This document shows, one piece after another, positions 1,472 to 53,355 of a stretch of 64,000 bases of DNA (position 1 is its first letter; every line of letters starts with the position of its first letter). Origin of the DNA: a virus; IMG/VR virus record IMGVR_UViG_3300022934_002389, positions 62,001 through 126,000 of that record, one strand, 5' to 3'. A program made the translations under genes and the position numbers. The notes beneath the pieces were generated by a model. The model saw only the letters and a list, made by a program, of their open reading frames with translations, was not told the origin of the DNA and ran no database searches.

Positions 1472-2130
1472 AAAATAGATGGGACGTAACAGTAGAACAA
1501 AGTAATTATGATTTTAATCCGTTTAGAGAAAGTGATCATGGCAAAAGCTTTAGAACAGTAGGAAATATAGAACCTACATGGAAAGATGAAATACCTATTG
1601 CAAATGCTAATCAATACGACTTTTATTGGCCTTCGCCTGTGTCTCCAGAAGGCGACAGTTTTAATTATGACTATGAAGAATTGCTTTGCAAGGATTGGGG
1701 TATACCTTTAGACTTTGTTGTATACAGACAGTGGACAACAACGGATGAAACACCAATACTAAACAGTCTAGCCGAACAAATCGGTTTAGAAAATGCACAA
1801 ACAAATATTCAAACTCAACATACAGGAATGATGCTACATTTACATATAGATAGTTTAACTGGTTTACGAAAAGAACGTACAGATCAAACAAGTAGTAGAG
1901 CAACAGACGATGAATGGGGTAGATGCTTTGTAATGCTTGATGATTGGGCACCTGGACATATTATTCAATTTGGTAATACCTACGTACCACCTTGGCATGC
2001 AGGAGATGTAATTTGGTTTGATTGGGCAAACATACCACATAGCACTGCTAACACTGGACCATGGCCTAGAAACATTGCAAAAATTACAGGTAAAGTTACG
2101 CAAAGGTATAAAGAGTTTGTTGGAATCTAA
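1468..2130 (+). CDS. 2OG-Fe(II) oxygenase-like protein, second of a tandem pair
   Basis: A 220-residue paralogue of the preceding gene. The metal site is His126/Asp128 (LHID) and His191 (PHSTAN), with Arg201 as the likely 2-oxoglutarate anchor. It has about 30 extra residues, mostly between residues 45-95 and in a loop at 131-150 that follows the HxD motif, so the substrate pocket probably differs. The start is GTG at 1468, overlapping the upstream stop; the same nine N-terminal codons make this start secure. The 3' end abuts or overlaps the following radical SAM gene. Confidence 0.6.
   Translation: MKNRWDVTVEQSNYDFNPFRESDHGKSFRTVGNIEPTWKDEIPIANANQYDFYWPSPVSPEGDSFNYDYEELLCKDWGIPLDFVVYRQWTTTDETPILNSLAEQIGLENAQTNIQTQHTGMMLHLHIDSLTGLRKERTDQTSSRATDDEWGRCFVMLDDWAPGHIIQFGNTYVPPWHAGDVIWFDWANIPHSTANTGPWPRNIAKITGKVTQRYKEFVGI
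1469..1495 (+). repeat. 27-bp direct repeat, copy 2 (start of second oxygenase-like gene)
   Basis: Second copy of the repeat at 903-929, in the same position relative to the start codon of the paralogous gene. The first base of the start codon differs (ATG versus GTG). Confidence 0.9.
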
Positions 2131-3226
2131 ACCTAGTTGTTGGTTTGCTTATAAAGGTTTATCTGTAGATTCTACAGGCAATCTAAATCCTTGCGGCCAT
2201 AGCACTTATAAGTTTGGAAAATTTACTGACTACAACTCTTTGAATGTTGACAGAACAAATGCTATAAAAGATTTTGATCAACATGTTCCGAAAGGGTGCA
2301 TTTCTTGTACAAATAGAGAAGTGAGAAACGAACAAAGTAGACGTTTATATCATTACGATTGGTTCAGTCAACAGGTAAATTTTGATATAGAATTTTTAGA
2401 TATTGATATAGGTAATCTATGCAATCTCAAATGTAGAATGTGTAATCCTGGACAGTCGTCTAGTTGGATAAAAGATGGACACCTTAAAGATAAAGTTGAT
2501 TTTACGTTAGACGATTTTGATAATAATAAGATTCTTGATAATATAAATGGCGATATGATAAAATTTTTATCTAGTTTAGATTCTTTAAGGTATATTATTA
2601 TAAAAGGTGGAGAACCTTTTATGCATCCAAGATTCTTTGAGTTTATAGAATGTATTCCAAACAAGCATAACGTAAAATTACAGATTATTACCAATGGCAC
2701 ACATAAATTGACTAAAGATGAAAAGAGATTGTTTGCTAAATTTGATAAACTGAATATTTTCTTTTCAGTAGAATCTGATGGAGAGATGTATCAATACATT
2801 AGAGGCGGAAAATTTACATTTGAAGAATCATTAGATAATTGGAAATCTTACAAAACGTTTCCTAATGCAAATGAAATTGGATGGATTTATACTGCAAACA
2901 TTTATGGTATCTATAATTTTGATAGTTTACAGAGTAAAATAGAAAACTCTATTGATTTTGGACATCAAGTTCTTGATCCTATGTATTTGAATCCGTTGAT
3001 TACACCTTTACATATAAAACAAAAAATATTAGAAACTACAAACTATTCTCATTGGAAAAAATATTTTGCAACTAGTGCAACAGATTTGTTTGGTATAAGC
3101 ATAGACAAACAATACAAACTTTTATGCAATTTGTATTCTTACACAACAACATTAGATAATATTAGAAGACAACACCTTTTAGATGTAGAGCCCAGGTTTG
3201 AGTGGATTTATGAATACAACAAATAA
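2117..3226 (+). CDS. Radical SAM protein with extra N-terminal cysteine motif (type A)
   Basis: The CNLKCRMC motif is a canonical CxxxCxxC radical SAM cluster site, followed by the GGEP motif (IIIKGGEPFM) and a SAM-domain barrel. Upstream of the core is a region with CWFAYKGL, NPCG and CISC cysteines that could bind a second cluster, as in SPASM or twitch-type enzymes. The frame is open back to 2018, but that would overlap the upstream gene by 113 bases. TTG at 2117 or 2120, just before the first conserved block and behind an AAGG, is the more likely start. The same architecture occurs at 22269-23504 and 40496-41578. The substrate is unknown. Confidence 0.75.
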   Translation: MLESKPSCWFAYKGLSVDSTGNLNPCGHSTYKFGKFTDYNSLNVDRTNAIKDFDQHVPKGCISCTNREVRNEQSRRLYHYDWFSQQVNFDIEFLDIDIGNLCNLKCRMCNPGQSSSWIKDGHLKDKVDFTLDDFDNNKILDNINGDMIKFLSSLDSLRYIIIKGGEPFMHPRFFEFIECIPNKHNVKLQIITNGTHKLTKDEKRLFAKFDKLNIFFSVESDGEMYQYIRGGKFTFEESLDNWKSYKTFPNANEIGWIYTANIYGIYNFDSLQSKIENSIDFGHQVLDPMYLNPLITPLHIKQKILETTNYSHWKKYFATSATDLFGISIDKQYKLLCNLYSYTTTLDNIRRQHLLDVEPRFEWIYEYNK

Positions 3227-4883: not shown

Positions 4884-6173
4884 ATGATTGAATTAGGAAT
4901 TTGGAGTGGTATCGGTTTACTAACTGGTCTTTTAGCCGGGTTAGTGCCAGGTGCTGGTCCATTTGTTGCTATTGGTGTCTTATACCCGTTTTTAGCGTCA
5001 ACTAGTGCGGTTAATATTATGGCGTGTTATGTTGCTATACTCATTACCACTAACTATACTAATAGTGTTACAGCAATCTTATACGGTATACCCGGAGATG
5101 CTACTGCAATTAGCACAGCAAGATACGGACATAAAATGTTTCAAAAAGGCGCAGGCGGCCTTGCTGTAACAAGTAACGCAATTAGTAGCACCGTTGGTGT
5201 AGCATTTGCAATGTGTTTGTTTTTAGTTGCCTTGCCTAGTATTATGCATGTATTCAAATTTTATAACAGTATTATACAAACAATTGTAATACTAGTTGCA
5301 ATATGTATGATTACATTTTTTACAAAACAGAATAAACTTTTGACATTATTACTGTTTTGTTTTGGAGGATTAATATCACATCAAGGAATTGATCCGATTA
5401 CATTTGATCAGTTTCTTGTTTTTAACAATTTTTATCTTAGTTTAGGAATACCTTTTGCAAGTGTAATGATTGGATTGTATCTGTTTCCTGAGATACTAAA
5501 AATTCATAACATTTCTATTTCCCAACCTAGCAAGATAAGTAAGTATGCAATAGGAAAAGGCACATTTGGTCCAAGCCTGTTAGGTAGCTTTATTGGATTT
5601 TGGTGCGGTCTTATTCCTGGCATAACGAATATTCTTGGTAGTTATGCTAGTGCAGGCATTGTAAAACGCTTTTTTAAAAAGCCTGTACTTAAAAGCATTG
5701 CTGCCGCAGAGGCTGCTAACAATAGTGGAGCATTATCCAGTTTGTTGCCTTTGCTAATCCTTGCTATACCTATTACGGGTAGTGAAGTAATTGTGTACTA
5801 CTTGATGTTAGAAAGTGGTTATCAATTTAATATAGAAAACACAGTAGACAAACTGTCTTCTATACTTTACTTTATACCGGTAGTGACATTAATATGTTTA
5901 CTTTTAAGTTGGTATGGTTTTAACCTGTTAGGTCAAATAGTGTATCTTTATAAACAATATAGAGTATATGCAAATACGTTGATCCTAACTACTATAAGTG
6001 TAATAAGTGTCGTTATCTTTCCTATACACGAATGGATGGTAGCATGTATACTGATTGCAATGGTACTAGGATATTTTCTACGAAATTACGATACGAGCCC
6101 AGTCATTTATGGATATTTCCTTAGTGACTTGTTCTATGAAAGTTTTGTAAGGACTGTTATAATATTATCTTAG
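4884..6173 (+). CDS. tctA: TctA-family tripartite tricarboxylate transporter membrane subunit
   Basis: A 429-residue polytopic membrane protein, shorter than the usual roughly 500 residues. It keeps the duplicated TctA signatures: GLVPGAGP near the N-terminus, the GIPGDATAISTARYG block, then in the second half GLIPGITN and AEAANNSGALSSLLPLL. TctA is the large permease subunit that imports carboxylates using a periplasmic TctC. No TctB small subunit is adjacent. It is followed 8 bases later by a TctC-like gene, so the two form an operon. It probably serves as an auxiliary uptake gene, or replaces or modulates a host permease. A 65-base gap precedes it. Confidence 0.85.
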   Translation: MIELGIWSGIGLLTGLLAGLVPGAGPFVAIGVLYPFLASTSAVNIMACYVAILITTNYTNSVTAILYGIPGDATAISTARYGHKMFQKGAGGLAVTSNAISSTVGVAFAMCLFLVALPSIMHVFKFYNSIIQTIVILVAICMITFFTKQNKLLTLLLFCFGGLISHQGIDPITFDQFLVFNNFYLSLGIPFASVMIGLYLFPEILKIHNISISQPSKISKYAIGKGTFGPSLLGSFIGFWCGLIPGITNILGSYASAGIVKRFFKKPVLKSIAAAEAANNSGALSSLLPLLILAIPITGSEVIVYYLMLESGYQFNIENTVDKLSSILYFIPVVTLICLLLSWYGFNLLGQIVYLYKQYRVYANTLILTTISVISVVIFPIHEWMVACILIAMVLGYFLRNYDTSPVIYGYFLSDLFYESFVRTVIILS

Positions 6174-10032: not shown

Positions 10033-12009
10033 TTATGCAGCCGTACCATCGTCTAAATTAATCCAAGCACCGTTTTGATAACCTTGGAATCTGTCTACTG
10101 ATTCGTTGTAAATAACCATGCCGTTGACAGCAGTTAATGCATTTCTATTTGCTGTTGTGTATTGACCAAACTGTATGTAGCCACCTGATGTGATAGTATT
10201 TTCTACAGCATCTACTATAATTGTAGAATCGTCAGCAACTAAACTACCTTTAAACGCCGACGCTGTAACATCACCCTCAAAAATACCTGAACCATTAACA
10301 TCTAATTCTGCACTAACAGTTGCTTTACCAATACCTACTTTGATTTGATCTGAATCGTTTGTTGTAAACATAACAAACTTTTCGTCAATTGTCAAATCGT
10401 TGTTTTTAGCAACACCTATGAATAATGCATCGTGTCCAGCTGTAATTTTGGAACTATTGATATCCCCGTCAATATCTGATATTGCGCCAAATTTTATTTC
10501 GCCTCTGATATCATAAACTCCGTCATCTAGTGCTGCATCTGCTTTATTCTTTTTGAGATCTAATTGCATTCTTCCTTCAAAAGAATTAAATTGAATAACT
10601 TGATCACCTGTTGTTTGCGATCTGTTTTCAAATAAAACTGTTAAATCATTTGGCAACCATCTAGTAAAGTGCATTTCTGATAGTTCTACTGATGTTAAAC
10701 TAACAGATGCTTCGTCGTATAAGTCACCGAATGTATTACCAAATAAATCACCTTGGAAAACTCCTGTCGGTGAACATTCAAAAGCACCTATAAATAAATT
10801 TCCTGTAAAAGTTTTATCCGCTGCATTTACTATTACTGCTGAATCATCTGCAATAACATTACCTTGCACGTTACCATTAAGTTGATTACTTACACCATCA
10901 ACAAGTATTGTAGAATCTTCGCCGATTAGATTACCTTGTACATCAATGGTATATGTTTGTCCGTCAACAATACCAATAGTAGGAGGAAAATTAAACAATC
11001 CGCTTGCATCACCCGTTACTCTATCAAAGTTACCAGTTGTTGCGTTAACTTCTTCAAACTTTGTTCCTACTCTACCAATTTTACCTGTTCCGCTAACAAC
11101 AGGGACAACATCTTTGTTGTTTAAAAAGTTTACACCGTTGACGTTAACAGAGCCACTTGGTGCAGTAATATCTATGTTTTGATCTGGTGATGTAATAACA
11201 CCACTGCCTGTGTATTCTGTATCTGCTCTTAATTTTCCTGCAACAGAATCTACCATTACAAAACTACTGTCTGAGAAAATACTACCTGTAACGTCACCAT
11301 CTAACGGACCAAAAATTTGATCAGCTTCTATATTACCGTTGAAGAATGAATTTCCGGTAATTGTTAATCCTAAACCAGCAAACGTTTGATTTGTTGCATC
11401 TAACAATAATGTGCTATCATCAGCAACAATGTTGATATTATAGTTACCACCACCTACAACACCTTCACCGCCACCTCCGCCAGTACTTGGAAGATTTGTT
11501 AAAAGACTACCGTCACCTACAAAAAAGTTTGCTGTTACTGTTTTAGAGAACGTATCAACCATAATAGTTGAATCATCTGCTACTACATCACCTGTAATAC
11601 TAATATCATATGTTTGGCCTTCGAGGATGCCTGTGCCTCCTCCTCCTCCGCCTGTTACTGGTAAGTTTGTAAGTCCGCTACCGTCACCTACAAATGACCC
11701 TGCGGTAACAGAACCAGTTGCTGTCATTGTATTTGCGCTAACATTAGCAGCAGCAGCAACTGATGTAGGACTAATAGTACCACCGATTGTGATATTACCT
11801 GTACCTACAATGTCAAAGTTATTAAGATCTAAATTTTGGCTTAGTACTGCTGGGGAACCACTTACACTACCTGTAACTCTGATACCGCCTAGTGTGCTGC
11901 CATCGCCCACGTAAATTTCTTGTGTATCAGTTGTGTAAACTAGTTCGCCTTCTGCAAACGTAACGCCCAACCTTTCAAGGTTTGTTCCGCGGCGAAGTCT
12001 CAATGTCAT
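10033..12009 (-). CDS. Tail fibre / receptor-binding-type structural protein with repeats
   Basis: A 658-residue protein. The first 45 residues (MTLRLRRGTN, AEGELVYTTDTQEIYVGDG) are the conserved N-terminal module of many marine phage fibres and tropism determinants. The body is Gly/Ser/Thr/Asp-rich and contains at least six imperfect repeats around ADDSTI-VDA, most followed by a T-A/G-xFxGDGS segment. The C-terminus (GMVIYNESVDRFQGYQNGAW) is typical of fibre tips. It is driven by a late promoter at 12046-12053 and has a hairpin over its ribosome-binding site. The predicted role is host attachment, from composition and context. Confidence 0.75.
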   Translation of the reverse strand: MTLRLRRGTNLERLGVTFAEGELVYTTDTQEIYVGDGSTLGGIRVTGSVSGSPAVLSQNLDLNNFDIVGTGNITIGGTISPTSVAAAANVSANTMTATGSVTAGSFVGDGSGLTNLPVTGGGGGGTGILEGQTYDISITGDVVADDSTIMVDTFSKTVTANFFVGDGSLLTNLPSTGGGGGEGVVGGGNYNINIVADDSTLLLDATNQTFAGLGLTITGNSFFNGNIEADQIFGPLDGDVTGSIFSDSSFVMVDSVAGKLRADTEYTGSGVITSPDQNIDITAPSGSVNVNGVNFLNNKDVVPVVSGTGKIGRVGTKFEEVNATTGNFDRVTGDASGLFNFPPTIGIVDGQTYTIDVQGNLIGEDSTILVDGVSNQLNGNVQGNVIADDSAVIVNAADKTFTGNLFIGAFECSPTGVFQGDLFGNTFGDLYDEASVSLTSVELSEMHFTRWLPNDLTVLFENRSQTTGDQVIQFNSFEGRMQLDLKKNKADAALDDGVYDIRGEIKFGAISDIDGDINSSKITAGHDALFIGVAKNNDLTIDEKFVMFTTNDSDQIKVGIGKATVSAELDVNGSGIFEGDVTASAFKGSLVADDSTIIVDAVENTITSGGYIQFGQYTTANRNALTAVNGMVIYNESVDRFQGYQNGAWINLDDGTAA

Positions 12010-12017
12010 TTTATGTT

Positions 12018-12063
12018 CTCCTAAGGTGATAATAGTATTTGTATGTATTTATCACCTTAGGAG
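12018..12063 (-). promoter_or_regulatory. 15-bp hairpin sequestering the tail-fibre RBS
   Basis: Perfect inverted repeat 12018-12032 / 12049-12063 with a 16-base loop. On the minus-strand RNA the 3' arm contains the Shine-Dalgarno TTAGGAG nine bases before the tail-fibre ATG. The 5' arm overlaps the late promoter box. RNA read through from upstream genes would fold and hide the RBS; RNA started at the late promoter would lack the 5' arm. No U-run follows, so it is not an intrinsic terminator. Confidence 0.8.
12046..12053 (-). promoter_or_regulatory. T4-type late promoter (GATAAATA)
   Basis: Minus-strand GATAAATAC, one base from the T4 late consensus TATAAATA, with no -35 element. Transcription would start about 6-8 bases downstream, within the hairpin loop before the tail-fibre gene. 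Confidence 0.75.
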
Positions 12064-12070
12064 GTTTTGT

Positions 12071-12421
12071 TTATCGATTTAGTTTAAGGAATTTATGAAC
12101 TCTTTTAGCAAGATCGCTTTTTAGTTGTTTAGTATCTAGCCTAAAATCTACGATATCAATTTGGTCTTCGTATTGCATAAACAAATTATCAAGGGTCTCT
12201 TCGATTTGGTCAATAGTTTGTTTTTTCTTACTATCGTCAACATCGATGTCCCATTGTGTACCGTTATGAAACTTAATTACAATTCTACTGAGGTATTCAA
12301 TAGGCAGTACTTCCATTTCAATGGATTCGAATATGTCATCCCAGTGTGTTTCCGTATCTGCTTCGTAATCAATAAGTTTCTTAGGCACTTGTTGTTGTTT
12401 TTTTCTTTTTGGTAGGAACAA
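12071..12421 (-). CDS. Hypothetical protein
   Basis: Up to 116 residues, starting at TTG 12421 inside the upstream gene; no downstream Met before residue 36, so the start is unsure. The N-terminus is very basic (KRKKQQQVPKK), the middle is acidic, and the C-terminus is an amphipathic helix (LAKRVHKFLKL). No known fold is recognised. It lies in a run of small genes ahead of the tail fibre. Confidence 0.6.
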   Translation of the reverse strand: MFLPKRKKQQQVPKKLIDYEADTETHWDDIFESIEMEVLPIEYLSRIVIKFHNGTQWDIDVDDSKKKQTIDQIEETLDNLFMQYEDQIDIVDFRLDTKQLKSDLAKRVHKFLKLNR

Positions 12422-14902: not shown

Positions 14903-14930
14903 AATATAACATATTTAAGTTTTTTGTCAA
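14903..14930 (-). promoter_or_regulatory. Sigma70-like promoter for the VWA gene
   Basis: Minus strand: TTGACA, 16-bp spacer, TATATT. It is directly followed by the 13-base element TATAGGCACTGAT (14887-14899), shared with the MoxR gene leader. An intrinsic terminator for the upstream gene sits just before it. Confidence 0.75.
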
Positions 14931-14935
14931 CCATT

Positions 14936-14972
14936 AAAAAGAAAAAATGGGCAGAGTATATACCCTGCCCAT
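14936..14972 (-). terminator. Rho-independent terminator after the MoxR-like gene
   Basis: Minus-strand hairpin with arms ATGGGCAGGGTAT / ATACTCTGCCCAT (14947-14972; 12 Watson-Crick pairs and one G-U in the ideal duplex, with the TATATA centre forming the loop) followed directly by a T-rich run. It separates the AAA gene from the VWA gene, which then has its own promoter. Confidence 0.85.
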
Positions 14973-14985
14973 TCCTGTGGCACAC

Positions 14986-16074
14986 TTACTGTTGTGCTGC
15001 CTTAATATACTTTCCATAACGATCATGGAACTCATCAAAACACTCAACAGCATCTGGATCGATTGGAAGACTGTATTGAGTAAGAGCAAGTTTGATACCC
15101 ATAACAACCAATTCCGTATCGAAATTATCCATTGCAAAACGCAAAAAGTTATTCACCTTAGCATCAAACTTTTTATCATTTTTTGCATCTGCATCTTGAA
15201 GTTCGTAACAAAGTGAAACAGTCAAGGAATACATGGCACTGATTTCTTTTGTGTTCAACTCTTTTACTTTACCATCTAAGATGTCTGATGGATTTGGCAT
15301 ACTCGATGCAACTTTACGGTGTGCCATAAACTTAACAGCAAGTCCTTCGCCAACCGAACCCGCTACAAGATCTGTAATAACTTCTTGATCATCTTCATCG
15401 TCAAGCAATTCGCTCACAAACGTCCATGTTCGTGGTGTTGCAAACGAACGACTTGGACTACGAGGATCAAAGTCAAACAAATCTTTTTTTGCAAACTGAA
15501 GATAACCAACTACATCTTTGTGTATCTTGTTAGCAACAGCCCACTCAAACCAGTCATTGAAATCAACAGCCAGTTCCAAGTGTACAAAACGGTTAGCAAG
15601 CGGAGCAGGCATGCGGTAAGTAACACCTTTGTCTGCTTCGCGGTTACCAGCCGCAATGATTACTACATTGTCAGGTAGTACATATGTACCAACCTTACGG
15701 TTAAGAATAAGTTGATATGCAGCCGCTTGTACAGCAGGTGCCGCTGAGTTCAACTCATCTAAAAACAAATAAATTGTCGAGAATTTTTTAGCAAATTCTT
15801 CGCTTGGAAGTTCTACAGGAGGAGCCCATTTCATTGTGTTATCATTTGCACTGTAGTAGGGCATACCTTTGATATCTGTAGGTTCCCAAAGTGACAAACG
15901 AACGTCAATGAGATATGAATTAGGTGTTGAAGTTTGAATCTGTTCAACAATTTCGGATTTACCAATACCTGGAGGCCCCCACAGGAAGATTGGACGTTTT
16001 TTAGCAATTGCTCGCTGAATTCGTGATTTAGCCTTGTTAGGGCTTACAGTACGTGTAATTTCTGCAACACTCAT
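14986..16074 (-). CDS. MoxR/CobS-type AAA ATPase
   Basis: A 362-residue protein. Walker A is GPPGIGKSE near residue 34 and Walker B is LFLDELNSA. A sensor asparagine lies in IIAAGNRE, and arginines (MPAPLANRF) sit at the expected finger position, as in MoxR ATPases. It pairs with the VWA/metallopeptidase protein encoded next. In T4-like cyanophages a related ATPase is annotated CobS; nothing here proves a cobalt-chelatase role. It is transcribed from its own sigma70-like promoter and ends at a strong terminator. Confidence 0.85.
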   Translation of the reverse strand: MSVAEITRTVSPNKAKSRIQRAIAKKRPIFLWGPPGIGKSEIVEQIQTSTPNSYLIDVRLSLWEPTDIKGMPYYSANDNTMKWAPPVELPSEEFAKKFSTIYLFLDELNSAAPAVQAAAYQLILNRKVGTYVLPDNVVIIAAGNREADKGVTYRMPAPLANRFVHLELAVDFNDWFEWAVANKIHKDVVGYLQFAKKDLFDFDPRSPSRSFATPRTWTFVSELLDDEDDQEVITDLVAGSVGEGLAVKFMAHRKVASSMPNPSDILDGKVKELNTKEISAMYSLTVSLCYELQDADAKNDKKFDAKVNNFLRFAMDNFDTELVVMGIKLALTQYSLPIDPDAVECFDEFHDRYGKYIKAAQQ

Positions 16075-16541: not shown

Positions 16542-17453
16542 TTAATCGTAATCTGCAAATCTATTGTGCAATAAGAATGCTTGATTGTATTCTATTATTT
16601 TGCTTATATCAGGCCAAATAGTTTGCCAATCTAATTTACAGATATAATCTATAGTTTCTACAATCTTTTGTAGTCTTTTTTCTTGATCTATTTCTTTATC
16701 ATAATCTTCTGACCAGAAATTATTAAATGTTTTAAATCCTAATTTATGTAAACTTTTTAAACTATTATTTTTGCCTACAATGACAAAAGGATGTGCAGCA
16801 AGAATAGTTTTAAATATTTTTTCTGAATGAAACATTGCATCTTCATTAAAGAAAGTTTCATTTACAACACTAAACCATGTGTTAAGAAAAATATCTCTAT
16901 TGAAATTGTTAGCCCAGTTTACATCAAAATCTTTTCTATCAACCACAAGGGGACTGTTTTCTAATTCTTCGTGCTCTGGATAACTAACAAGGTTGTTTTT
17001 TATAAGGCCTAGTTTTTTTAGTTTAATAATTATACTTAATCTGTGCTGTCTATTTTGCCTGTTTAAACAATTAAACAAATGTTTTCTTGTATTGTTGTAT
17101 TCTTTAATTGGAATAGGAACATGATCAGTTTTTACACGCTCTGCCCAAACAGGTTGTGCAATTATATTAATAGGTGTTGTAAATTGACTTTGTGCCTTGA
17201 ACCATCTTTTGTATCTTTTTTGTTCGTACAAATTGCTAGTAATTATATAAAGAGGTTTACCTCTAGGTATTTTATTGTGAATATATTTGTAGTGGTTATG
17301 TAGAGGAAATGCTTCTGACATTTGATCAATTACAAGGCGAGATCTATTCCAATGATCAATTAATTTATCTATCCATTCGTAAGGTCCTTCACTAAGCGTA
17401 TATCCACCTAATGGTTGTGCAGAAAGAACGGTACTATTCTGATACAACTTCAC
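16542..17453 (-). CDS. Putative glycosyltransferase (GT10/exostosin-like C-terminus)
   Basis: A 303-residue protein. The block FHSEKIFKTILAAHPFVIVG followed by LHKLGFKTF resembles the nucleotide-sugar-binding C-terminus of fucosyltransferase/exostosin-like enzymes (E-K-T/I-F-K-P/T...HPFI). A related block is in 39646-40512. The N-terminal half is not recognisable. The start is GTG at 17453, overlapping the upstream gene by 20 bases. The substrate is unknown; capsular or tail glycosylation and DNA-base glycosylation are both open. Confidence 0.45.
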   Translation of the reverse strand: MKLYQNSTVLSAQPLGGYTLSEGPYEWIDKLIDHWNRSRLVIDQMSEAFPLHNHYKYIHNKIPRGKPLYIITSNLYEQKRYKRWFKAQSQFTTPINIIAQPVWAERVKTDHVPIPIKEYNNTRKHLFNCLNRQNRQHRLSIIIKLKKLGLIKNNLVSYPEHEELENSPLVVDRKDFDVNWANNFNRDIFLNTWFSVVNETFFNEDAMFHSEKIFKTILAAHPFVIVGKNNSLKSLHKLGFKTFNNFWSEDYDKEIDQEKRLQKIVETIDYICKLDWQTIWPDISKIIEYNQAFLLHNRFADYD

Positions 17454-17721
17454 CTTGTGTCAACTTTATTACTACAAATTTATCTGTTTTAAATTGTTGA
17501 TTTAATCTTTTTGCAAGATTATGTGCATGTCCTGGATTAGAAAAACTTGTTTTCTTATACTTAGGACCTGGATAGTTTGTAATTGAATTACTACTTTTTA
17601 AATTAAAAGGCTTGCCGTCGTAGAATACTGCCCAGATTGCATCTGCATCTAAAATTTGCTCACATTTGTACGTTGCACTATTTGTAAATTCTAACAGTAT
17701 TGTAGGCTTTGGTCTTGACAT
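17434..17721 (-). CDS. Conserved small hypothetical protein, late-regulated
   Basis: A 95-residue protein starting MSRPKPTILLEF, basic and with a compact alpha/beta look (IWAVFYDGKPFNL, HAHNLAKRLNQQF). It is preceded by a late promoter and a hairpin in which the start codon is paired and the AAAAGGA Shine-Dalgarno sits in the loop. I recall similar proteins in cyanophages without a function. Confidence 0.7.
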   Translation of the reverse strand: MSRPKPTILLEFTNSATYKCEQILDADAIWAVFYDGKPFNLKSSNSITNYPGPKYKKTSFSNPGHAHNLAKRLNQQFKTDKFVVIKLTQGEVVSE

Positions 17722-17750
17722 ATACGTATCCTTTTAAAAACTACGTATAT
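17720..17750 (-). promoter_or_regulatory. Hairpin hiding the start codon of the downstream gene
   Basis: Perfect 9-bp inverted repeat 17720-17728 / 17742-17750, loop 13 bases. In the minus-strand RNA the 3' arm includes part of the ATG and the loop holds the SD. The 5' arm lies immediately downstream of the late box, around the expected late start site, so late RNAs would lose most of it. Confidence 0.65.
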
Positions 17751-17757
17751 ATTTATC
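17750..17757 (-). promoter_or_regulatory. T4-type late promoter (GATAAATA)
   Basis: Minus-strand GATAAATAT, 28 bases before the ATG of the 95-residue gene. No -35 box. It overlaps the 5' arm of the start-codon hairpin by one base. Confidence 0.7.
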
Positions 17758-22242: not shown

Positions 22243-22271
22243 TAATATAACACACAAACACCCAAATGTCA
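22243..22271 (-). promoter_or_regulatory. Sigma70-like promoter
   Basis: Minus strand: TTGACA, 17-bp spacer, TATATT, in the 58-base gap before the 185-residue gene. The leader contains ATAGAGGCAC, a partial match to the TATAGGCAC element after the MoxR and VWA promoters. Confidence 0.8.
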
Positions 22272-23504
22272 ATCTTTTAAAAAACCAAATTCAGGATAAA
22301 GATCTAAGAATTTTGTTGCTCTTGTACTGTCAAAATAATCCAACATGTATCTAAAATAATCACGTTGTTTATCTGATAAAGTTTTTTGTGGCTCCGTTTT
22401 AATCCAATCTAACCAGTTGTAGTCGTCTATTAGGTTTAAAGTTTTTAACTCTGGTAAGAAAGTTTCAATTTTTTTTACAATTTCAATTCTGTAATCAATG
22501 GGTGAGTTGGCAAAATGTAATGGCTCTGGCCAATCTAAAAATGTTGTATTAAAAGGAAACTTATTTTGTTTAATAAAGTCAAGCAAATTTGGCAAATCTT
22601 TTAGATTTAGCAATTGTATTGTAGGCTCTAAGGTAATTTGAAAATTCTCATATTGGTCGCATATTTTTTTAGATCTTAAAATCTTGCTTTCCAATGCAGA
22701 CCAAGAACTAGGGTATCGAACATATTCTAAAACTTTTCCAGTAGCATCCAAACTTATTGATAAGTTTACATGCTTAAACTTTGTAAGGTATTTTTCTATC
22801 CATGATTCTTTGATAATTGTGCCATTTGAAATTATGTGTACCTTTATATGACCGCTTTCTTTTCTATTCACTAATTCTTCTATCAAAGATGTAAATCCCT
22901 TCATCACAAACGGCTCGCCGCCGACTGCCATAATCTCTTGAGTTCTTTTTGCATTTTCAAGTATATGGTCAACAAATCGCTGGTTGAAATTATTAGATGA
23001 TGTAGAAAGAACTTCTAGGTCTTTACTATTGGTATAAGGATTGCTTTTGCCGAATTTATTATATTCTAGCATGTTCTTTGCAATTTGATTGCTCAATGTA
23101 GGGTTACACATCACGCACTGCAAGTTACATTCGTTGCTCATTCTCAAATCAAAACTCAGAGGACTAGGAACAACTGTATGGGCATTTTTATAATAATAAT
23201 CGGCTAATGATTTCCATTTATGATTTTCATACTGTCGGTTTGAAATGATTCCCTGTTCTTCACTTTCAATACAACTTTTACAGATATTTTTAGGGATGAT
23301 TCTTTGATTGAATTTGTGTCTTAATTTTTGTAAAGTCTTGCTGTTCCATACTTCATCGACATCCTTGCCTAGAATATTAATATCGTCTGAATCTAATTGT
23401 TTTGCATAACAACAGGCTTTCATATGCCCTGTTGTTGTCACAAACATTTTAACAAAAGGATGGACACAAAAATTTTTGTATAAATCTTCTATTTCATTCG
23501 TCAT
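22269..23504 (-). CDS. Radical SAM protein with extra N-terminal cysteines (type A)
   Basis: A 411-residue protein. CNLQCVMC gives the CxxxCxxC cluster site and MAVGGEPFV the GGEP motif. A preceding region with CVHPF, ACCYA and CKSC cysteines matches the layout of 2117-3226 and 40496-41578. Twitch/SPASM-type radical SAM enzymes often act on peptides, but no precursor peptide is seen nearby. The substrate is unknown. It is the only one of the five accessory radical SAM genes without a type B partner beside it. Confidence 0.8.
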   Translation of the reverse strand: MTNEIEDLYKNFCVHPFVKMFVTTTGHMKACCYAKQLDSDDINILGKDVDEVWNSKTLQKLRHKFNQRIIPKNICKSCIESEEQGIISNRQYENHKWKSLADYYYKNAHTVVPSPLSFDLRMSNECNLQCVMCNPTLSNQIAKNMLEYNKFGKSNPYTNSKDLEVLSTSSNNFNQRFVDHILENAKRTQEIMAVGGEPFVMKGFTSLIEELVNRKESGHIKVHIISNGTIIKESWIEKYLTKFKHVNLSISLDATGKVLEYVRYPSSWSALESKILRSKKICDQYENFQITLEPTIQLLNLKDLPNLLDFIKQNKFPFNTTFLDWPEPLHFANSPIDYRIEIVKKIETFLPELKTLNLIDDYNWLDWIKTEPQKTLSDKQRDYFRYMLDYFDSTRATKFLDLYPEFGFLKD

Positions 23505-25482: not shown

Positions 25483-25589
25483 TCTGCTTTTGCCTTGATA
25501 AATCTTTCTGCTAGATCGTATTTAAGTTGCAGATTAAAAATGGTTGTAGTGTTATAAGGTTGTGTAAAAGAATAATTAATTTCAAACAT
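25470..25589 (-). CDS. 39-residue small protein between folE and the SGNH gene
   Basis: The ATG overlaps the folE stop (TAATG) and the stop lies 13 bases inside the SGNH gene, as expected of a packed, coupled operon. The peptide (MFEINYSFTQPYNTTTIFNL, then QLKYDLAERFIKAKAEWQG) ends in an amphipathic helix. No family is recognised. Confidence 0.5.
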   Translation of the reverse strand: MFEINYSFTQPYNTTTIFNLQLKYDLAERFIKAKAEWQG

Positions 25590-26272
25590 TAGCAAGCAAA
25601 TTCCTGTTGTAGTTTGATGTTGTCAAAGAACTCTTTCTTAGTTGTAGGATCATCTTTAAAACTACCTCTTAGCACAGTTGTTTGTGTAAGTGAACTATGT
25701 GCCATAATTCCGCGATTCTCGCAGCAGCCGTGTGTTGCTTGAATGTATACACCTAAGTGCTCGGCACCTGTCGCTTTTTGAATCTCACGTGCAATATCAT
25801 TTGCAAGTTCTTCTTGCAGTGTGCCGCGTCTTGCACACCACTGTGCAATTCGTGTATATTTAGAAAGACCAATTAATTTTTCAGCAGCAATAATACCAAT
25901 GTATGCAGTGCCAACAACAGGCTGGTGATGATGTGAACACATTGATTTAAGTTCACTGCGTACTACTAGCATACCTTCATAACGGTCTTCCGAATCATTT
26001 GGAAATGCTGTTGCATCAGGCTTAGGATCATAACGTCCTGCCATAATTTCATTTATATACATTTTTGCTAGACGTCTGCCTGTATCCTTTGAATTAGGAT
26101 CATTTACAATGTCAATACAAAGACTTTCAAGAACGCTTTCGAACTTAGGTGTAAGTTCTTCTATAAGGGCTTCTTTGTCACCTTTTTGCATAACATATGA
26201 TATGTTATCGCCAGCCCAGTAACGTTTACCAGCATCTTCTAATCGTTGTTTTAGTTCTAAACTTTTTGTCAT
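25589..26272 (-). CDS. folE: GTP cyclohydrolase I
   Basis: A 227-residue protein. The zinc site is visible as SMCSHHHQP and THGCCENRG, with IGLSKYTRI and QEELANDIA between them, all diagnostic for FolE. It makes dihydroneopterin triphosphate from GTP, the first step to 7-deazaguanines (and folate). Here it most likely feeds QueD and QueE encoded nearby. It has its own sigma70-like promoter, so it is expressed early. Confidence 0.93.
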   Translation of the reverse strand: MTKSLELKQRLEDAGKRYWAGDNISYVMQKGDKEALIEELTPKFESVLESLCIDIVNDPNSKDTGRRLAKMYINEIMAGRYDPKPDATAFPNDSEDRYEGMLVVRSELKSMCSHHHQPVVGTAYIGIIAAEKLIGLSKYTRIAQWCARRGTLQEELANDIAREIQKATGAEHLGVYIQATHGCCENRGIMAHSSLTQTTVLRGSFKDDPTTKKEFFDNIKLQQEFAC

Positions 26273-40512: not shown

Positions 40513-41578
40513 TACAAGTACCTCTGAATTTATCTAAATGTTTTTGGTAACTCATGCCTTGTTCAAAGTGTTTTATATTACGTTCTCGAGTAACTGCCGG
40601 TAAGCTTCTTTTAAGATCTTTATACACATCGCATAAGTCTATATAAATTTGTTTATGATCATCAGGTGCATGACACGGTGCAAATTCTTTAGGACTGTTC
40701 ACAGGATAAACTTCCCATCTTTCAAAATTATTTGACATAATCCATTCACCTAGTGATTCCATATGTTTTACGTTAATCCAACTTACAGTTGTACAGACAT
40801 CACTTGTACCAATTTGTTGTGCTTTTGCAATGTTTTTTATAATTTTATCCCAATTGCTAGGATACCTAATATATTCATTTATTTCTTTATAACCGTCAAT
40901 GCTAAAATGCCACTCCACATCAAATTTTTCTAAAATTGAAAGTAGTTTAGTGGGTAAATTGTTTCCGTTTGTAGTTATACGTAAACTAGGTTTGCTATCA
41001 TATACTAAAAGATATTCGCAAAACTTTTGAAGGTAATTGTTTACAGTTGGTTCTCCACCTGTGAAACGTATTTCATCTCTATCGTGTAAAAATTCAGCAA
41101 GTTTTTGTAAATTGTTTTCGTCTTCATACCATACATCAAACGAATACTTGTGTCTTTGTATTAGTTTATGTTGTATACCTTGGCTATCTAGTTTTGTAAG
41201 TTCTGCATCTATAAGACTGCTGTTCACAGGACCGCACATTGAACACGAAAGATTACATTTGTTTCCAAATTTTATTTCAGCGTCTTTACGATTGTTTCTA
41301 TACTTTCTTTCGCTTTGCAATCGTAAACTTTCAAAGCCGTAAGATTCTTCTTCTTTACAATCTCTACATCCTTCGGGAAATATTCCATTATCAAGATCTT
41401 TCTTAACACTTGCTAAAAAGTCACTGTCTTTGTATTTTTCAATATCTGAAACTTTTACAAGATCTTTTCTGTCGCGGTCGTCCCAATTACAGCAAGGGCG
41501 TAAATTACCCAAAGTATCCATGCTGATGTGATTATCTAGCCATTTACACTTCTTCGGAGAGTTCGAAGAGTTTGTCAA
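40496..41578 (-). CDS. Radical SAM protein with extra N-terminal cysteines (type A)
   Basis: About 360 residues from TTG 41578; the frame is open to 41665, but that would overlap the upstream radical SAM gene by 122 bases. CNLSCSMC supplies the cluster, IRFTGGEPTV the GGEP motif. The N-terminal cysteines (KKCKW, RPCCNW, GCRDC) match the layout of 2117-3226 and 22269-23504. It has a type B partner directly upstream. Confidence 0.75.
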   Translation of the reverse strand: MTNSSNSPKKCKWLDNHISMDTLGNLRPCCNWDDRDRKDLVKVSDIEKYKDSDFLASVKKDLDNGIFPEGCRDCKEEESYGFESLRLQSERKYRNNRKDAEIKFGNKCNLSCSMCGPVNSSLIDAELTKLDSQGIQHKLIQRHKYSFDVWYEDENNLQKLAEFLHDRDEIRFTGGEPTVNNYLQKFCEYLLVYDSKPSLRITTNGNNLPTKLLSILEKFDVEWHFSIDGYKEINEYIRYPSNWDKIIKNIAKAQQIGTSDVCTTVSWINVKHMESLGEWIMSNNFERWEVYPVNSPKEFAPCHAPDDHKQIYIDLCDVYKDLKRSLPAVTRERNIKHFEQGMSYQKHLDKFRGTCIDMVF

Positions 41579-42665
41579 TTTCTCTGACTTTTCCACAGGA
41601 TTTTCCGCACTGGACCCAGCATTGACTGATTGATTTTGATTGCCAACTGTCTGAATAAACTGCAAGTACGCCTCCGTCTATAATTTGATCAAGTCTATGA
41701 TGATGTAAATTGTTAGCATCACCTAGTGCTTTTTGTAGTGTTTGCATTTCTCTTGCTTCAGGAACATATCTAGGACCTTGCATTTTATTTCCTATAAAGC
41801 AACAAGGATGAACTCTTCCCAATGCATCTATATATAGTTCAACCATTGGTTCTTCATGGTATGGATATGGCAAAGTTCTAAAACTATTACAGGCAATAAC
41901 GCCTTCTTCTTTAACAGGTTCTGGCAAATCTGCTTCCCAACCTAATGGAGCAGGTGTATAATGGTCATGTCCGTAATCAGTAGCATGTTCTAACACATAT
42001 TCTAAGTTATAGTCTTTGTCGTATGCAGGCATACCTGTTCCATCTACACCAAATGGATTTTTTAACACAAAATTGATACCATTTTCTTCTGCAATTTTTC
42101 TACTGAGTTCAACTTGATGTTTGTTGTGTTTAAATTGTAAAAAGTCCCAATCAGTATGCGCACCTGTATATGCATAGGCAATCATGTTATTCCATGCTTT
42201 ATCCCAAATAACATTTCTTCTGTATATATGGTTAGTATCTTCTAAGCCGTCTATACTAAATGTAATTTTACGCATTGGTTTTGGATCTAAACCATTTGTT
42301 GTTTCTATAAACAGTTCTCCTATTGCACGGAAATGATCCGGAGTACGCAAACCACCATTTGTGTTAATTTGTATAGTTGCTATACTGTTAGAGCATATAT
42401 AATCTAATATATCATATATGTCATTACAGGCCAATGGATCTCCATGTGTTCCGCAAAATATCCAACTTTTAGATTTTTGTACAAGATCTAGTGGAAACCA
42501 TCTTTTAAACAAATCAATTGTAATATCAGTCTGCACAACTTCCGGATCGACATTAGTGCTATTACGTAAGAATCTTGGACAGCCTGGACACGCTGCGTTA
42601 CAACGTGTACTTAATTCTACGTGGAAAGCATTTAAATCGTTATAATTCCATGCATTATACTTCAT
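41544..42665 (-). CDS. Radical SAM protein with C-terminal cysteine cluster (type B)
   Basis: A 373-residue protein with CNAACPGC near residue 22, ITFSIDGLEDTNHIYRRN and C-terminal cysteines (VHPCCFIG, QCWVQCGKSCGK) suggesting an auxiliary Fe-S cluster. It resembles 3958-4818 through FHVELSTRC/WHIELTNRC and the SIDGL-DTN-IYR block. A late box lies only five bases before the ATG. The reaction is unknown. Confidence 0.8.
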   Translation of the reverse strand: MKYNAWNYNDLNAFHVELSTRCNAACPGCPRFLRNSTNVDPEVVQTDITIDLFKRWFPLDLVQKSKSWIFCGTHGDPLACNDIYDILDYICSNSIATIQINTNGGLRTPDHFRAIGELFIETTNGLDPKPMRKITFSIDGLEDTNHIYRRNVIWDKAWNNMIAYAYTGAHTDWDFLQFKHNKHQVELSRKIAEENGINFVLKNPFGVDGTGMPAYDKDYNLEYVLEHATDYGHDHYTPAPLGWEADLPEPVKEEGVIACNSFRTLPYPYHEEPMVELYIDALGRVHPCCFIGNKMQGPRYVPEAREMQTLQKALGDANNLHHHRLDQIIDGGVLAVYSDSWQSKSISQCWVQCGKSCGKVREIDKLFELSEEV

Positions 42666-49130: not shown

Positions 49131-49882
49131 TTGCGGCAACTCCAGTAACGTGCTTTTGTTCTTGGTCCTGGATTATCACAGTTATGTCTAGCACGGAATG
49201 AACGTCTACGTGCTGGGTTAGACTTTTTGATCTTCATGTTTGGATCACCAAAGTTAACTTTCTTAATATTTTTAGTCTTTGGATCTCTTACATATACTTT
49301 GAACTTTTTAACATCGCCGCGCATAGGTTTGCCAAGTTTAACTTTGCGTCCTTGATATTCAGCTTCGTCCATTGATTTTCTATCACGTCTTAATTCTAAA
49401 TATTTTGTTCCACTAGTTGCTACCATACCCATTGCTTTTGCATCGTTTTGTGCTTGCATTTTATTTGTTATTGGATAGCTTTTTTTAACTTCTAGTGTTC
49501 CTGGATCATAGACAATATACATATTTCTATATTTTTCAAACTCTGATCTTTCTTCTAAACCTTCATCTTCATCTTCGTTGAACCACATGACACCGTAGTT
49601 TTCAAAAAACTCGTCGCCGTCATATGTTTCTTCAATATCTGAAATTTCTTCGTTAGCAGATATTTCAATATCAAAGTCGTCATAACCTTGTTCAAACATA
49701 TAATTTGCTAGGTGCTCTGCATATCCATCTGCTTCTTCTTCTGATAATTCCCTAGATAGAGGAATTTCAAAAACTGTTGCACCCTGTTCTGATTCAAAAA
49801 TGTCGTTGCCTGGAAAAATTGACTCATCTAACTTTTCAGCAATATCAGTTTTTTCCATGACTACTCGGATAAAATGTTCCAT
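49124..49882 (-). CDS. Late acidic protein with C-terminal Cys module
   Basis: A 252-residue protein. The first half is strongly acidic (ELSEEEADGYAEHLANYMFE, EDEDEGLEE). The second half is basic and ends with ARRRSFRARHNCDNPGPRTK, ARYWSCRKW, a C-terminal module shared by several T4-like phage proteins. A late box precedes it by 28 bases. Virion or assembly function is inferred. Confidence 0.65.
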   Translation of the reverse strand: MEHFIRVVMEKTDIAEKLDESIFPGNDIFESEQGATVFEIPLSRELSEEEADGYAEHLANYMFEQGYDDFDIEISANEEISDIEETYDGDEFFENYGVMWFNEDEDEGLEERSEFEKYRNMYIVYDPGTLEVKKSYPITNKMQAQNDAKAMGMVATSGTKYLELRRDRKSMDEAEYQGRKVKLGKPMRGDVKKFKVYVRDPKTKNIKKVNFGDPNMKIKKSNPARRRSFRARHNCDNPGPRTKARYWSCRKW

Positions 49883-49909
49883 GATCGATCCTTTGTAAAT
49901 TTACTAATA

Positions 49910-50608
49910 CTATTTATCTAGATCGTGTTTGTAAATTAGTTTATCGATCCTTGAAATATTACCACCTGCAAGTAGTTCAAACAATGTAAGTGCTTTGTCG
50001 TTCTTAATATAAACGTATTGCCCTTTTATCCAGTTTTTGTTTTTTATTTTTTGTAACAGTTTAGTGCCGCATTTGCATAAATTAGGATTTTTTACAATCC
50101 AATTAGCCATTTCAGGATTAACATTCTTGCCACCAAATGTAACTTTATAATCAAACTCTGTTTCTTTGTTAACAATAATTACATTTTTATTATTTTGCAA
50201 ATATTCTATCATATCAGGACTCGGCTTCCAAACTTTAATGTAGTCTGCTGATAAAGTATTGGCTAATTTGTCTATCAAACTCTCGTTGTTTGAATAAATG
50301 TTTAAGAAACTTTGCTCTATTCTAACAGTATAGTCTGTTTCATGCATTAGATTGGTAATGATTCTTTCGACATCTAATATCTCATTAGTATCAATAGAAA
50401 TATGTGAGTGACCAAATCTTGCGTTTACTTGAAATGTTTTACTTCCAGGAAAAATTCTTGCTTTAAATGAATTAAGTTCTCGTCTTGCGTACTGAAAGTT
50501 TTTCCCGTGCTGTATTTCAGTACGCAATATATGTGCTATATAAAGTCTTGTTTCTAATTTATATAGATATTTGTTATAATGTAGTTTTGTAGTCTCAGCT
50601 TGTTGCAA
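49910..50608 (-). CDS. Hypothetical protein
   Basis: A 232-residue alpha/beta protein with a Lys/Asn-rich C-terminus containing one CKCG motif. No family is recognised. Its end carries the late box of the next gene and its start overlaps the ClpA gene stop by 14 bases. Confidence 0.6.
   Translation of the reverse strand: MQQAETTKLHYNKYLYKLETRLYIAHILRTEIQHGKNFQYARRELNSFKARIFPGSKTFQVNARFGHSHISIDTNEILDVERIITNLMHETDYTVRIEQSFLNIYSNNESLIDKLANTLSADYIKVWKPSPDMIEYLQNNKNVIIVNKETEFDYKVTFGGKNVNPEMANWIVKNPNLCKCGTKLLQKIKNKNWIKGQYVYIKNDKALTLFELLAGGNISRIDKLIYKHDLDK
49911..49918 (-). promoter_or_regulatory. T4-type late promoter (GATAAATA)
   Basis: Minus-strand GATAAATAG, 28 bases before the ATG of the acidic late gene at 49882. 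A short CGATC/GATCG pairing with the RBS region exists but is too weak to call a hairpin. Confidence 0.75.
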
Positions 50609-52844
50609 TTACAGTACTCTCAACATTTAAGACGATGTCTTTGCCTTTTGCGTTGATTGATAGTTTACCACCGTCTTTCAAATCACCAAACAATAGCATT
50701 CTTGACAAAGGACGTTTAATATCTTTGTCAATAACACGCTGTAATGGTCTTGCACCCATTTTACGATCAAAGCCTTTGTCTACTAACAAATCTAATGCTT
50801 CGTCTGTAACAGAAACTTCTACGTTTTTATCCGCAACTTGATCTTTAAGTTCTTTTAAGAACTTGCCAACAATTTTTAACATCACAGGCTTACCAAGTTT
50901 AGCAAACGTAATAACGCCATCTAGCCTATTTCTAAACTCTGGTGCAAAGAATTTTTTCAATTCGCCATCTTCGTAGTCAGAACCGTCTGATTCTTCACCA
51001 AATCCGATAGCATTTTTCTCTGCTTCTCTTGCACCAAGATTTGTTGTTAGGATTAGGATACTGTTACGTGCATCTGCTTCCTTACCGTTGCTGCCAGTGA
51101 TCATACCGTTGTCCATAAGTTGCAATAAAACATTACTTACATCTGGGTGTGCTTTTTCAATTTCATCTAGCAACAACACACAGTTGGGATTTTCTTGCAG
51201 TTTGATAATCAACTGTCCTGCATCGTCTTCAAATCCTACATAACCTGGAGGTGCACCGATAAACTTTGCAACACTATGCTTCTCTTGATATTCACTCATA
51301 TCAAATCGTACAAGTTGTACACCTAAATGATGTGCAAGTTGTTTTGCTGTTTCTGTTTTACCTGTACCTGTCGGACCCATAAACACAAATGATCCAATCG
51401 GTTTATCTTCTGGTTTAAGTCCTGCTTGCGAAACAAGTATTTTATCAACAATACCTTCGATTGCTTCGTCTTGACCGTAAACACTACCTTTCATATTAGT
51501 TTCTAAATTAGCAAGATTTTCTGTCTCACGTTCTGCAACTTGCTCTTTTGGTATTTTAACCATTTTTGCAAGTTCAAATTGAATACTTTCTTCTGTGACA
51601 ATTTTATTTTCTGTCTGATTATTGACCTTGAACCTACTACATGCAACATCAATAACATCAATTGCTTTGTCAGGTAGTTTTTTATCTGCTTGATATTTGA
51701 TTGTAAGTTTTACTGCTGCTTCAATTGCTTCATCTGTAATTTCTACAGTATGAAATTCTTCATAATATTTCTTAATACCATGTAAAATATCTTTTGTAAT
51801 TTCTGCACTCGGCTCGTCAACAGTTACACGCTGGAATCTTCTCATAAGCGCACGATCTGATTCGAAGTACTTGCGGTACTCTTCCCAAGTAGTTGAAGCA
51901 ACAACTTTGATATTACCTTTAGACAATGCAGGTTTTAACATATTTGCTAAATCATTTGCACTATTACTTCCACCTGCGCCAGCGCCACTAATCATGTGTG
52001 CTTCGTCAATAAACATAATAGTTTTGCCTTTTTTCTGTAGTGCAGATAACACAAGTTTAAAGCGTTCTTCAAAGTCGCCGCGGTATTTTGAACCTGCAAG
52101 CATACTGCCGATATCAAGTGCATAAACATTGTATTCTTTTAAAAACTCTGGAACATCGTTGTTTACAATTTTCCATGCTAAACCTTCAGCAATAGCAGTT
52201 TTACCCACACCTGGATCGCCGACCATAAGCACATTTGATTTTGTGCGGCGTCCTAGTGCAAGTGCTAGTGATTCTATTTCGTCTTCCCGTCCGATAACAG
52301 GATCTATACGACCTTTTTTAACATCGGCATTGAGATCGTCAGTAAATGCTTTTAATGCTTTGTTAGCAATACCAGCATTTTCCATGTCTTCGTCTGCTAC
52401 TATATCTAATTCAAGTTCTGCACTCATATATTGGATAAACTTATCTTTCTGAATGCCTGCTTGTTGACATGCAAAGAACGCATAACTTCTTTTTTCGCTT
52501 AATGTACTAATAAAAACATCAGTAATTTCGATTTGATTGCGTCCTTGAAATAATACTTGTGCAAAAGCTCGATTTAAAACCCGCTCAACAGTGCCTGTCT
52601 TAACAGGTTTATATTTTTTTGCTTCTGTTTTAATTTCGTTTAATTTTGTTTTGAGATAATTTTCTACATTCTTTTTCAATAGGTCTACATCTGTATCAAA
52701 CCCTTTTAATGCTGTAGAAAATTGTTCTTCACACAGCATTGCAAACAGAAGATGTTCAAGAGTAACATATTCATGCTGTAATTTCTTTGCGTCTTTAACT
52801 GCCTTATCAAATACTACTTGTAATGCTTGGCTAGGTTCTACCAT
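50595..52844 (-). CDS. clpA: ClpA-like ATPase of the Clp protease
   Basis: A 749-residue protein, the length of E. coli ClpA (758). Two Clp_N repeats (residues 1-145), D1 AAA with GDPGVGKT (209-216) and IMFIDEAHM, and D2 AAA with GPTGTGKT (490-497), a YVGFED pore loop and LLLDEIEKAH. No ClpB-type middle domain is present. Residues 613-615 (IGF in NAIGFGEE) fill the position of the ClpP-binding IGL loop, so it could dock onto host ClpP. It is followed by deformylase and DnaJ genes, i.e. a proteostasis group. Confidence 0.9.
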   Translation of the reverse strand: MVEPSQALQVVFDKAVKDAKKLQHEYVTLEHLLFAMLCEEQFSTALKGFDTDVDLLKKNVENYLKTKLNEIKTEAKKYKPVKTGTVERVLNRAFAQVLFQGRNQIEITDVFISTLSEKRSYAFFACQQAGIQKDKFIQYMSAELELDIVADEDMENAGIANKALKAFTDDLNADVKKGRIDPVIGREDEIESLALALGRRTKSNVLMVGDPGVGKTAIAEGLAWKIVNNDVPEFLKEYNVYALDIGSMLAGSKYRGDFEERFKLVLSALQKKGKTIMFIDEAHMISGAGAGGSNSANDLANMLKPALSKGNIKVVASTTWEEYRKYFESDRALMRRFQRVTVDEPSAEITKDILHGIKKYYEEFHTVEITDEAIEAAVKLTIKYQADKKLPDKAIDVIDVACSRFKVNNQTENKIVTEESIQFELAKMVKIPKEQVAERETENLANLETNMKGSVYGQDEAIEGIVDKILVSQAGLKPEDKPIGSFVFMGPTGTGKTETAKQLAHHLGVQLVRFDMSEYQEKHSVAKFIGAPPGYVGFEDDAGQLIIKLQENPNCVLLLDEIEKAHPDVSNVLLQLMDNGMITGSNGKEADARNSILILTTNLGAREAEKNAIGFGEESDGSDYEDGELKKFFAPEFRNRLDGVITFAKLGKPVMLKIVGKFLKELKDQVADKNVEVSVTDEALDLLVDKGFDRKMGARPLQRVIDKDIKRPLSRMLLFGDLKDGGKLSINAKGKDIVLNVESTVIATS

Positions 52845-53355
52845 TTTTGTTCCTTTTTGCTTGCTTTTTTAAACCCATGTTAAGTTTTAGTCTGCTAACT
52901 CTATTAATGAATTGTATTCCTTGTAAGTGATCATATTCGTGTAAAAATATTCTACTGTCAATATCATTAAATTTTGTCTCTACATGTATAACATCTTTAT
53001 AGTCATTTGTCAACGTATCAAATTCAACAACACAACTAATTGGACGTCTTACTTTAAGTGTCAACCCCGGATGGCTTAAACACCCTTCAATTCCTTCTTC
53101 TAATTCTTTACTAATACCTTTAATGTGCGGATTTATTACAACGATTGTATCGCCGTATTTTTTATTTAACAAACATTTCATAACAAATATCTGCCCATTT
53201 ATTCCCACTTGATTTGCTGATAATCCTAACCCTCCTTCCTTTTGCATTAATTCAATCATTTCAAATGCAAGAGGTCTTGGATTGTCTGTAGCCAAATCAA
53301 ACTTTGGAACAGGATTTTCTAGTCTTGTATCAGGCGCTACGATTAATTGCATCAT
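52831..53355 (-). CDS. def: Peptide deformylase
   Basis: A 174-residue protein with all three deformylase motifs: [10 protein letters not shown] (motif 1), EGCLSHPG (residues 90-94, metal Cys) and HEYDHLQG (139-143, HExxH). It removes N-formyl from nascent proteins. Phage-encoded versions are common in marine myoviruses. The C-terminus is basic and overlaps the clpA start. Confidence 0.93.

Follow-up and report, generated by a model that had tools for sequence, protein, structure and literature searches.

Is this phage fibre gene kept silent by an RNA hairpin until a late promoter nested in that hairpin comes into use? The window, the whole stretch of 64,000 nucleotides that was analysed, is part of a 135,461-base virus fragment. 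The first-pass annotation had described a late promoter box within a hairpin that hides the Shine-Dalgarno (SD) of a tail-fibre gene, and had proposed that early read-through RNA is closed to translation while RNA from the late promoter, starting in the loop, is open, as in phage T4. It gave no strand; the gene and the hairpin are both on the minus strand (Table 1). We consider it likely that this locus carries a timing switch of the T4 type, in which early read-through RNA is closed and late RNA from GATAAATA is open. The proposal draws on sequence: a hairpin with its late box, predicted promoters and terminators, and arms that co-vary among relatives. The late start site, the timing and the translational effect are what we infer from these.

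Table 1. Coordinates in the window of the features of the two putative switches and of their surroundings.
Feature	Position	Strand	Basis
658-aa fibre-like protein, N-terminal Mtd_N domain (PF18454)	10033..12009	-	ORF and Pfam
3' arm (TTATCACCTTAGGAG), Shine-Dalgarno AGGAG inside at 12018-12022	12018..12032	-	repeat
Loop; predicted late +1 at 12040	12033..12048	-	sequence plus inference
Late-promoter box GATAAATA, then C; inner end of 5' arm and three loop bases	12046..12053	-	sequence, motif placement
5' arm, anti-Shine-Dalgarno (CTCCTAAGGTGATAA)	12049..12063	-	repeat and fold
Upstream ORF, 116 aa, stop 7 nt before 5' arm	12071..12421	-	ORF
Sigma-70-type promoter TTGACA-16-TATATT, 11/12, TG before -10; 2.9 kb upstream	14903..14930	-	promoter scan
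Terminator-like hairpin just upstream of the sigma-70-type promoter	14943..14976	-	terminator scan
95-aa conserved protein behind second switch	17434..17721	-	ORF, homologues
Second hairpin: 5' arm 17752-17742, 3' arm 17728-17718 over ATG (17721)	17718..17752	-	repeat
Late box GATAAATA of second, soc-like switch	17750..17757	-	sequence

The physical description of the hairpin was borne out in full. Read on the minus strand from 12063 downwards, the order is CTCCTAAGGTGATAA, 16 nt of loop, TTATCACCTTAGGAG, AACATAAA and the ATG of the fibre-like gene (12009-12007). The two 15-bp arms are 100% complementary, AGGAG lies entirely inside the 3' arm, and the late box does sit at the inner end of the 5' arm, contributing five bases to it and three to the loop. 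The long leader RNA is predicted to fold at -23 kcal/mol (z -5.5, with 0 of 200 shuffles equally good), with the SD paired. A script search for perfect 15-mer repeats with loops of 3-60 returned this single one in the window; 100 dinucleotide shuffles gave 0.03 on average, although one of them contained three. A chance origin of the hairpin is ruled out by the repeat shuffles, the fold shuffles and the arm-swap permutations described below.

The gene behind the hairpin probably encodes a fibre. Its product matches Mtd_N (PF18454) at the N-terminus with 35.8 bits (Pfam cut-off 26.3), and annotated tail fibre proteins are among the weak matches of the domain consensus. P0001 gave no match in the phage collection, its N-terminal consensus gave weak matches only, and the 116-aa upstream ORF matched no family. 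An identical fibre protein is present on contigs of up to 256 kb. By DNA polymerase, the nearest cultured relatives are Sinorhizobium phage Phosso, Agrobacterium phage Atu_ph07 and a Vibrio phage, with records of 349-490 kb.

The late box is real by its position; what is special is its placement and not its count. GATAAATA occurs seven times in the window against 6.0 expected, which is no excess, and TATAAATA, with 3 copies against 9.1 expected, is under-represented. When 7-mers seen at least six times were ranked over the 100 nt upstream of the 158 called ORFs, ATAAATA was the most enriched, and 13 of its 18 copies in the 135-kb record lie at most 100 nt upstream of a called ORF, a 13-fold enrichment. 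A gp55-type late sigma factor (phrog_12791, E ~1e-79; T4 in the same search, 7e-8) was found in all eight related contigs searched, seven of which have the hairpin, weaker in L138; the 135-kb record itself, a fragment, gave no match to the family. The late TATA box is described in the available part of PMC2988020 as 8 bp long and placed roughly one helical turn ahead of the start, with its first bases at -13/-12. Because of this numbering, and taking the box start as -13, the late +1 is predicted at 12040, inside the loop, and the predicted late RNA is without the 5' arm. Box placement, the sigma factor of the relatives and this predicted start agree with the earlier view that late RNA starts in the loop.

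The predicted consequence for translation is large. At 37 °C, the calculated cost of opening the SD falls from 12.2 kcal/mol in the long leader to 2.7 in the predicted late leader, and that of opening the region from the SD to the AUG falls from 12.8 to 2.8. The long-minus-short opening difference of the fibre gene, 9.8, is the largest among the 107 SD-bearing genes of the record (median 0.37). Computation therefore sides with the view of the first-pass annotation that early read-through RNA would be closed and late RNA open.

Read-through across the hairpin, also part of the earlier claim, finds support in the sigma-70-type promoter upstream, the predicted source of such RNA: five ORFs separate it from the fibre gene, and the terminator scan listed no minus-strand terminator-like site in this interval. 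A similar promoter lies ~2.8-2.9 kb upstream in five of six related stretches, two of them close kin of the window; L340 lacks it, and L341 has the same upstream promoter but is without the fibre hairpin. The record holds 20 sigma-70-type promoters of like quality against a shuffle mean of 9.55 and a maximum of 17, and therefore single ones can be chance. In Rfam, the only hit was a sub-threshold one to tpke11 (26.1 bits, cut-off 43) at window 14918-14993 (-), over the terminator-like hairpin and the promoter.

We propose that RNA reading through from this early-type promoter would include both hairpin arms, so that the SD would be paired and fibre translation shut. Late in infection, RNA polymerase with the gp55-type sigma factor of the phage would start at GATAAATA, and the late RNA, beginning near 12040 in the loop without the 5' arm, would be open. 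The promoter box would thereby double as part of the stem.

Fibre homologues were picked by protein N-terminus only. The first set comprised the best 80 of 557, of which 79 had enough upstream sequence and 70 a box at -30 to -60, leaving 50 distinct leaders in 39 clusters after filtering; the second, the best 80 of 522, added 20 new clusters. Each set lost one of its 80 leaders for having less than 85 nt of upstream sequence; boxless leaders (9 of 79 and 16 of 79) and 14 second-set leaders already present in the first were also dropped, and near-duplicates were merged in clusters at 80% identity. In the arm-swap test, the box and the 30 nt preceding it were paired with the leader, either natively or with arms swapped between phages. 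The sum was -541.8 against -356.3 (sd 20.4) in the first set and -195.1 against -154.6 (sd 9.7) in the second, with 0 of 10,000 permutations reaching it in each, and over all 59 clusters z was -10.65, again with 0 of 10,000. Clustered homologues are still related, but the negative controls, which share that relatedness, showed no signal, with z -0.46 for a segment 50 nt further upstream and z +1.39 against the first codons. Pairing of -16 kcal/mol or better was found in 19 of 59 native clusters and in 226 of 3422 cross pairs.

Changed yet matching arms are seen in L169 (AGTGTGATA/TATCACACT), L181 (AGCGTGAT/ATTACGCT) and L136 (CTGGATCAGAT/ATCTGATCCAG), and L152, L199, L300 and L202 have further arms that differ but match. 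In the main class, with loops of 14 to 25 nt, the 18 leaders that were typed fold at -11 to -26 in the long form and at 0 to -1.6 in the predicted late form. Mismatches in the fibre helix are G-U in 11 cases and A-C in seven. Because MAFFT alignment A3 misplaced the 3' arm in both L169 and L181, it was passed over for pair counts in favour of the arm-swap permutations and a single fixed-register table. The predicted fibre lock thus recurs across many uncultured phages with arms that are changed but matching. It is common and not universal, because many homologues, mainly those with CATAAATA, have none: a strong hairpin is absent from about two thirds of the clusters, and the CATAAATA homologues give a weaker arm-swap signal (17 of 10,000). 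When viral contigs were searched with a pattern that fixed the box and the 3' arm but not the 5' arm, 40 stretches were returned, 17 of them distinct, and 16 of these precede an MxxRLRRG-type fibre start (like MALRLRRG); the odd one, L239, is without the 5' arm. These fibre starts were identified by eye, Pfam having been applied to the window protein and the consensus. The two-arm pattern returned 55 stretches, by eye mostly in other contexts, which serve as leads only.

An alternative would be translational coupling, in which fibre translation from the long RNA needs ribosomes finishing the 116-aa gene, late RNA is translated independently, and the outcome is control of a ratio and not a shut-off. 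This retains a small share of the probability because the upstream stop adjoins the 5' arm; the distance is 7 nt here and ranges from -7 to +11 nt over 19 helices of homologues. However, T4 e and soc are similarly spaced (7 and 6 nt, read by hand), and yet early e RNA is ~100-fold less active according to the accessible text of PMC3014915. It is considerably less probable that the hairpin is a transcription attenuator or terminator, ending read-through RNA before the fibre gene. Several homologues are U-rich after the stem (mean T 3.6 of 8 in 19 hairpin leaders, 2.9 of 8 in 39 others), and in L041 a late box sits in a terminator-like hairpin, but in the window the stem is followed by AACATAAA with no U run, and the hairpin is absent from the terminator scan. 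As an intrinsic terminator, a stem followed by a U run, the fibre hairpin was accordingly rejected. In L041, on the minus strand at 5667-5690, the hairpin containing GATAAATA is followed by 8 T and precedes a portal-like gene, as judged by eye.

A second, soc-like arrangement with the same box lies before the gene of the 95-aa conserved protein. Here GATAAATAT stands directly before the 5' arm, and the partner arm covers the ATG. We collected 84 leaders, namely those of 80 contigs (the best 80 of 585 relatives) together with the window, Phosso, PA5oct and Atu_ph07; 75 of the 84 have the box, and 71 distinct ones form 35 clusters. The arm-swap test gave 2 of 10,000. The pair formed by box+11 and ATG-3 is G-C in 12 of the 35 clusters, A-U in eight, G-U in five, A-C in none and otherwise composed in ten, and its co-variation has a Fisher p of 0.0016 on 25 clusters, with relatedness ignored. 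In three cultured phages, PA5oct, Atu_ph07 and Phosso, the counterpart of the 95-aa gene has a structured leader; in SCTP-2, a fourth cultured relative, the box is farther upstream and no clear lock was seen. A DNA palindrome serving as operator for a repressor is very improbable: the repeat does overlap the promoter box, but both arms change together, the main-class loop varies from 14 to 25 nt, and the fixed-register pair of the second switch has five G-U and no A-C, as RNA pairing predicts.

A third late-box gene (ATG 49882, -) encodes 252 aa and has a short hairpin over its SD. As a candidate switch (49882-49930, -) it was rejected: its opening difference is 9.0, but its fold (z 0.5) is no better than that of shuffles.

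The RNA switch that we favour has well-known counterparts. In T4, e, soc, 49 and I-TevI have structures sequestering the SD or AUG, and at e and I-TevI late starts escape them (PMC3014915 and PMC2988022, as far as their available text goes); lysozyme synthesis is ~100-fold lower from the long RNA (PMC3014915). The T4 record NC_000866 shows the e, soc and 49 hairpins, and the earlier comparison with these three genes therefore agrees with both the source and the T4 sequence. The closest likeness is to e, where the 5' arm contains or adjoins the late box, the 3' arm contains the SD, the long early RNA is closed and the late RNA open (PMC3014915), and the upstream stop is ~7 nt before the arm; the same logic is predicted for the fibre switch. 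The differences are that e encodes lysozyme and has two late promoters and a shorter stem, whereas our locus has a fibre-like gene, a single box and a 15-bp stem without a mismatch. T4 soc, gene 49, I-TevI, segB and Aeh1 mobE follow the same logic of a late gene inside an early or middle unit (PMC2988022 and PMC3014915, in the portions available) but differ in the gene. The soc box is outside the 5' arm, as in our second switch, whereas the fibre box overlaps the arm by five bases. The NATAAATA late promoters of cyanophages S-PM2 and Syn9 share the box and the gp55-dependent logic; unlike for the fibre switch, no hairpin is mentioned in the accessible part of PMC2984593.

The design is already known from T4; what this analysis adds is another class of gene, a wide spread and the co-variation of the arms. 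Literature listings, drawn from a library with few subscription papers, showed no previous account of a hairpin of this sort before a fibre gene. With confidence that is evenly balanced, it can be hypothesised that, in a broad and mostly uncultured group of large T4-related phages, RNA locks around a late promoter silence late receptor-binding fibre genes and the 95-aa gene at the ends of early-type units. The locks would turn over or arise anew (L136, L152, L169, L181, L199/L300, L202). Because this appears to happen repeatedly, fibre timing may be under lasting selection, with single locks replaceable. The predicted fibre switch carries a design known from a handful of T4 genes over to the fibre genes of a large phage group, with co-variation in its favour, and raises the question of why early fibre synthesis would be harmful. 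For the second switch, the leaders of PA5oct, Atu_ph07 and Phosso, all of them cultured, could be tested at once.

Elsewhere in the window, three radical-SAM-like genes and a GTP cyclohydrolase gene (2018-3226 (+), 22269-23504 (-), 41544-42665 (-) and 25589-26272 (-)) possibly form a deazaguanine-type DNA modification set, and genes for a peptide deformylase and an ATP-dependent protease lie at 52831-53355 (-) and 50595-52844 (-).
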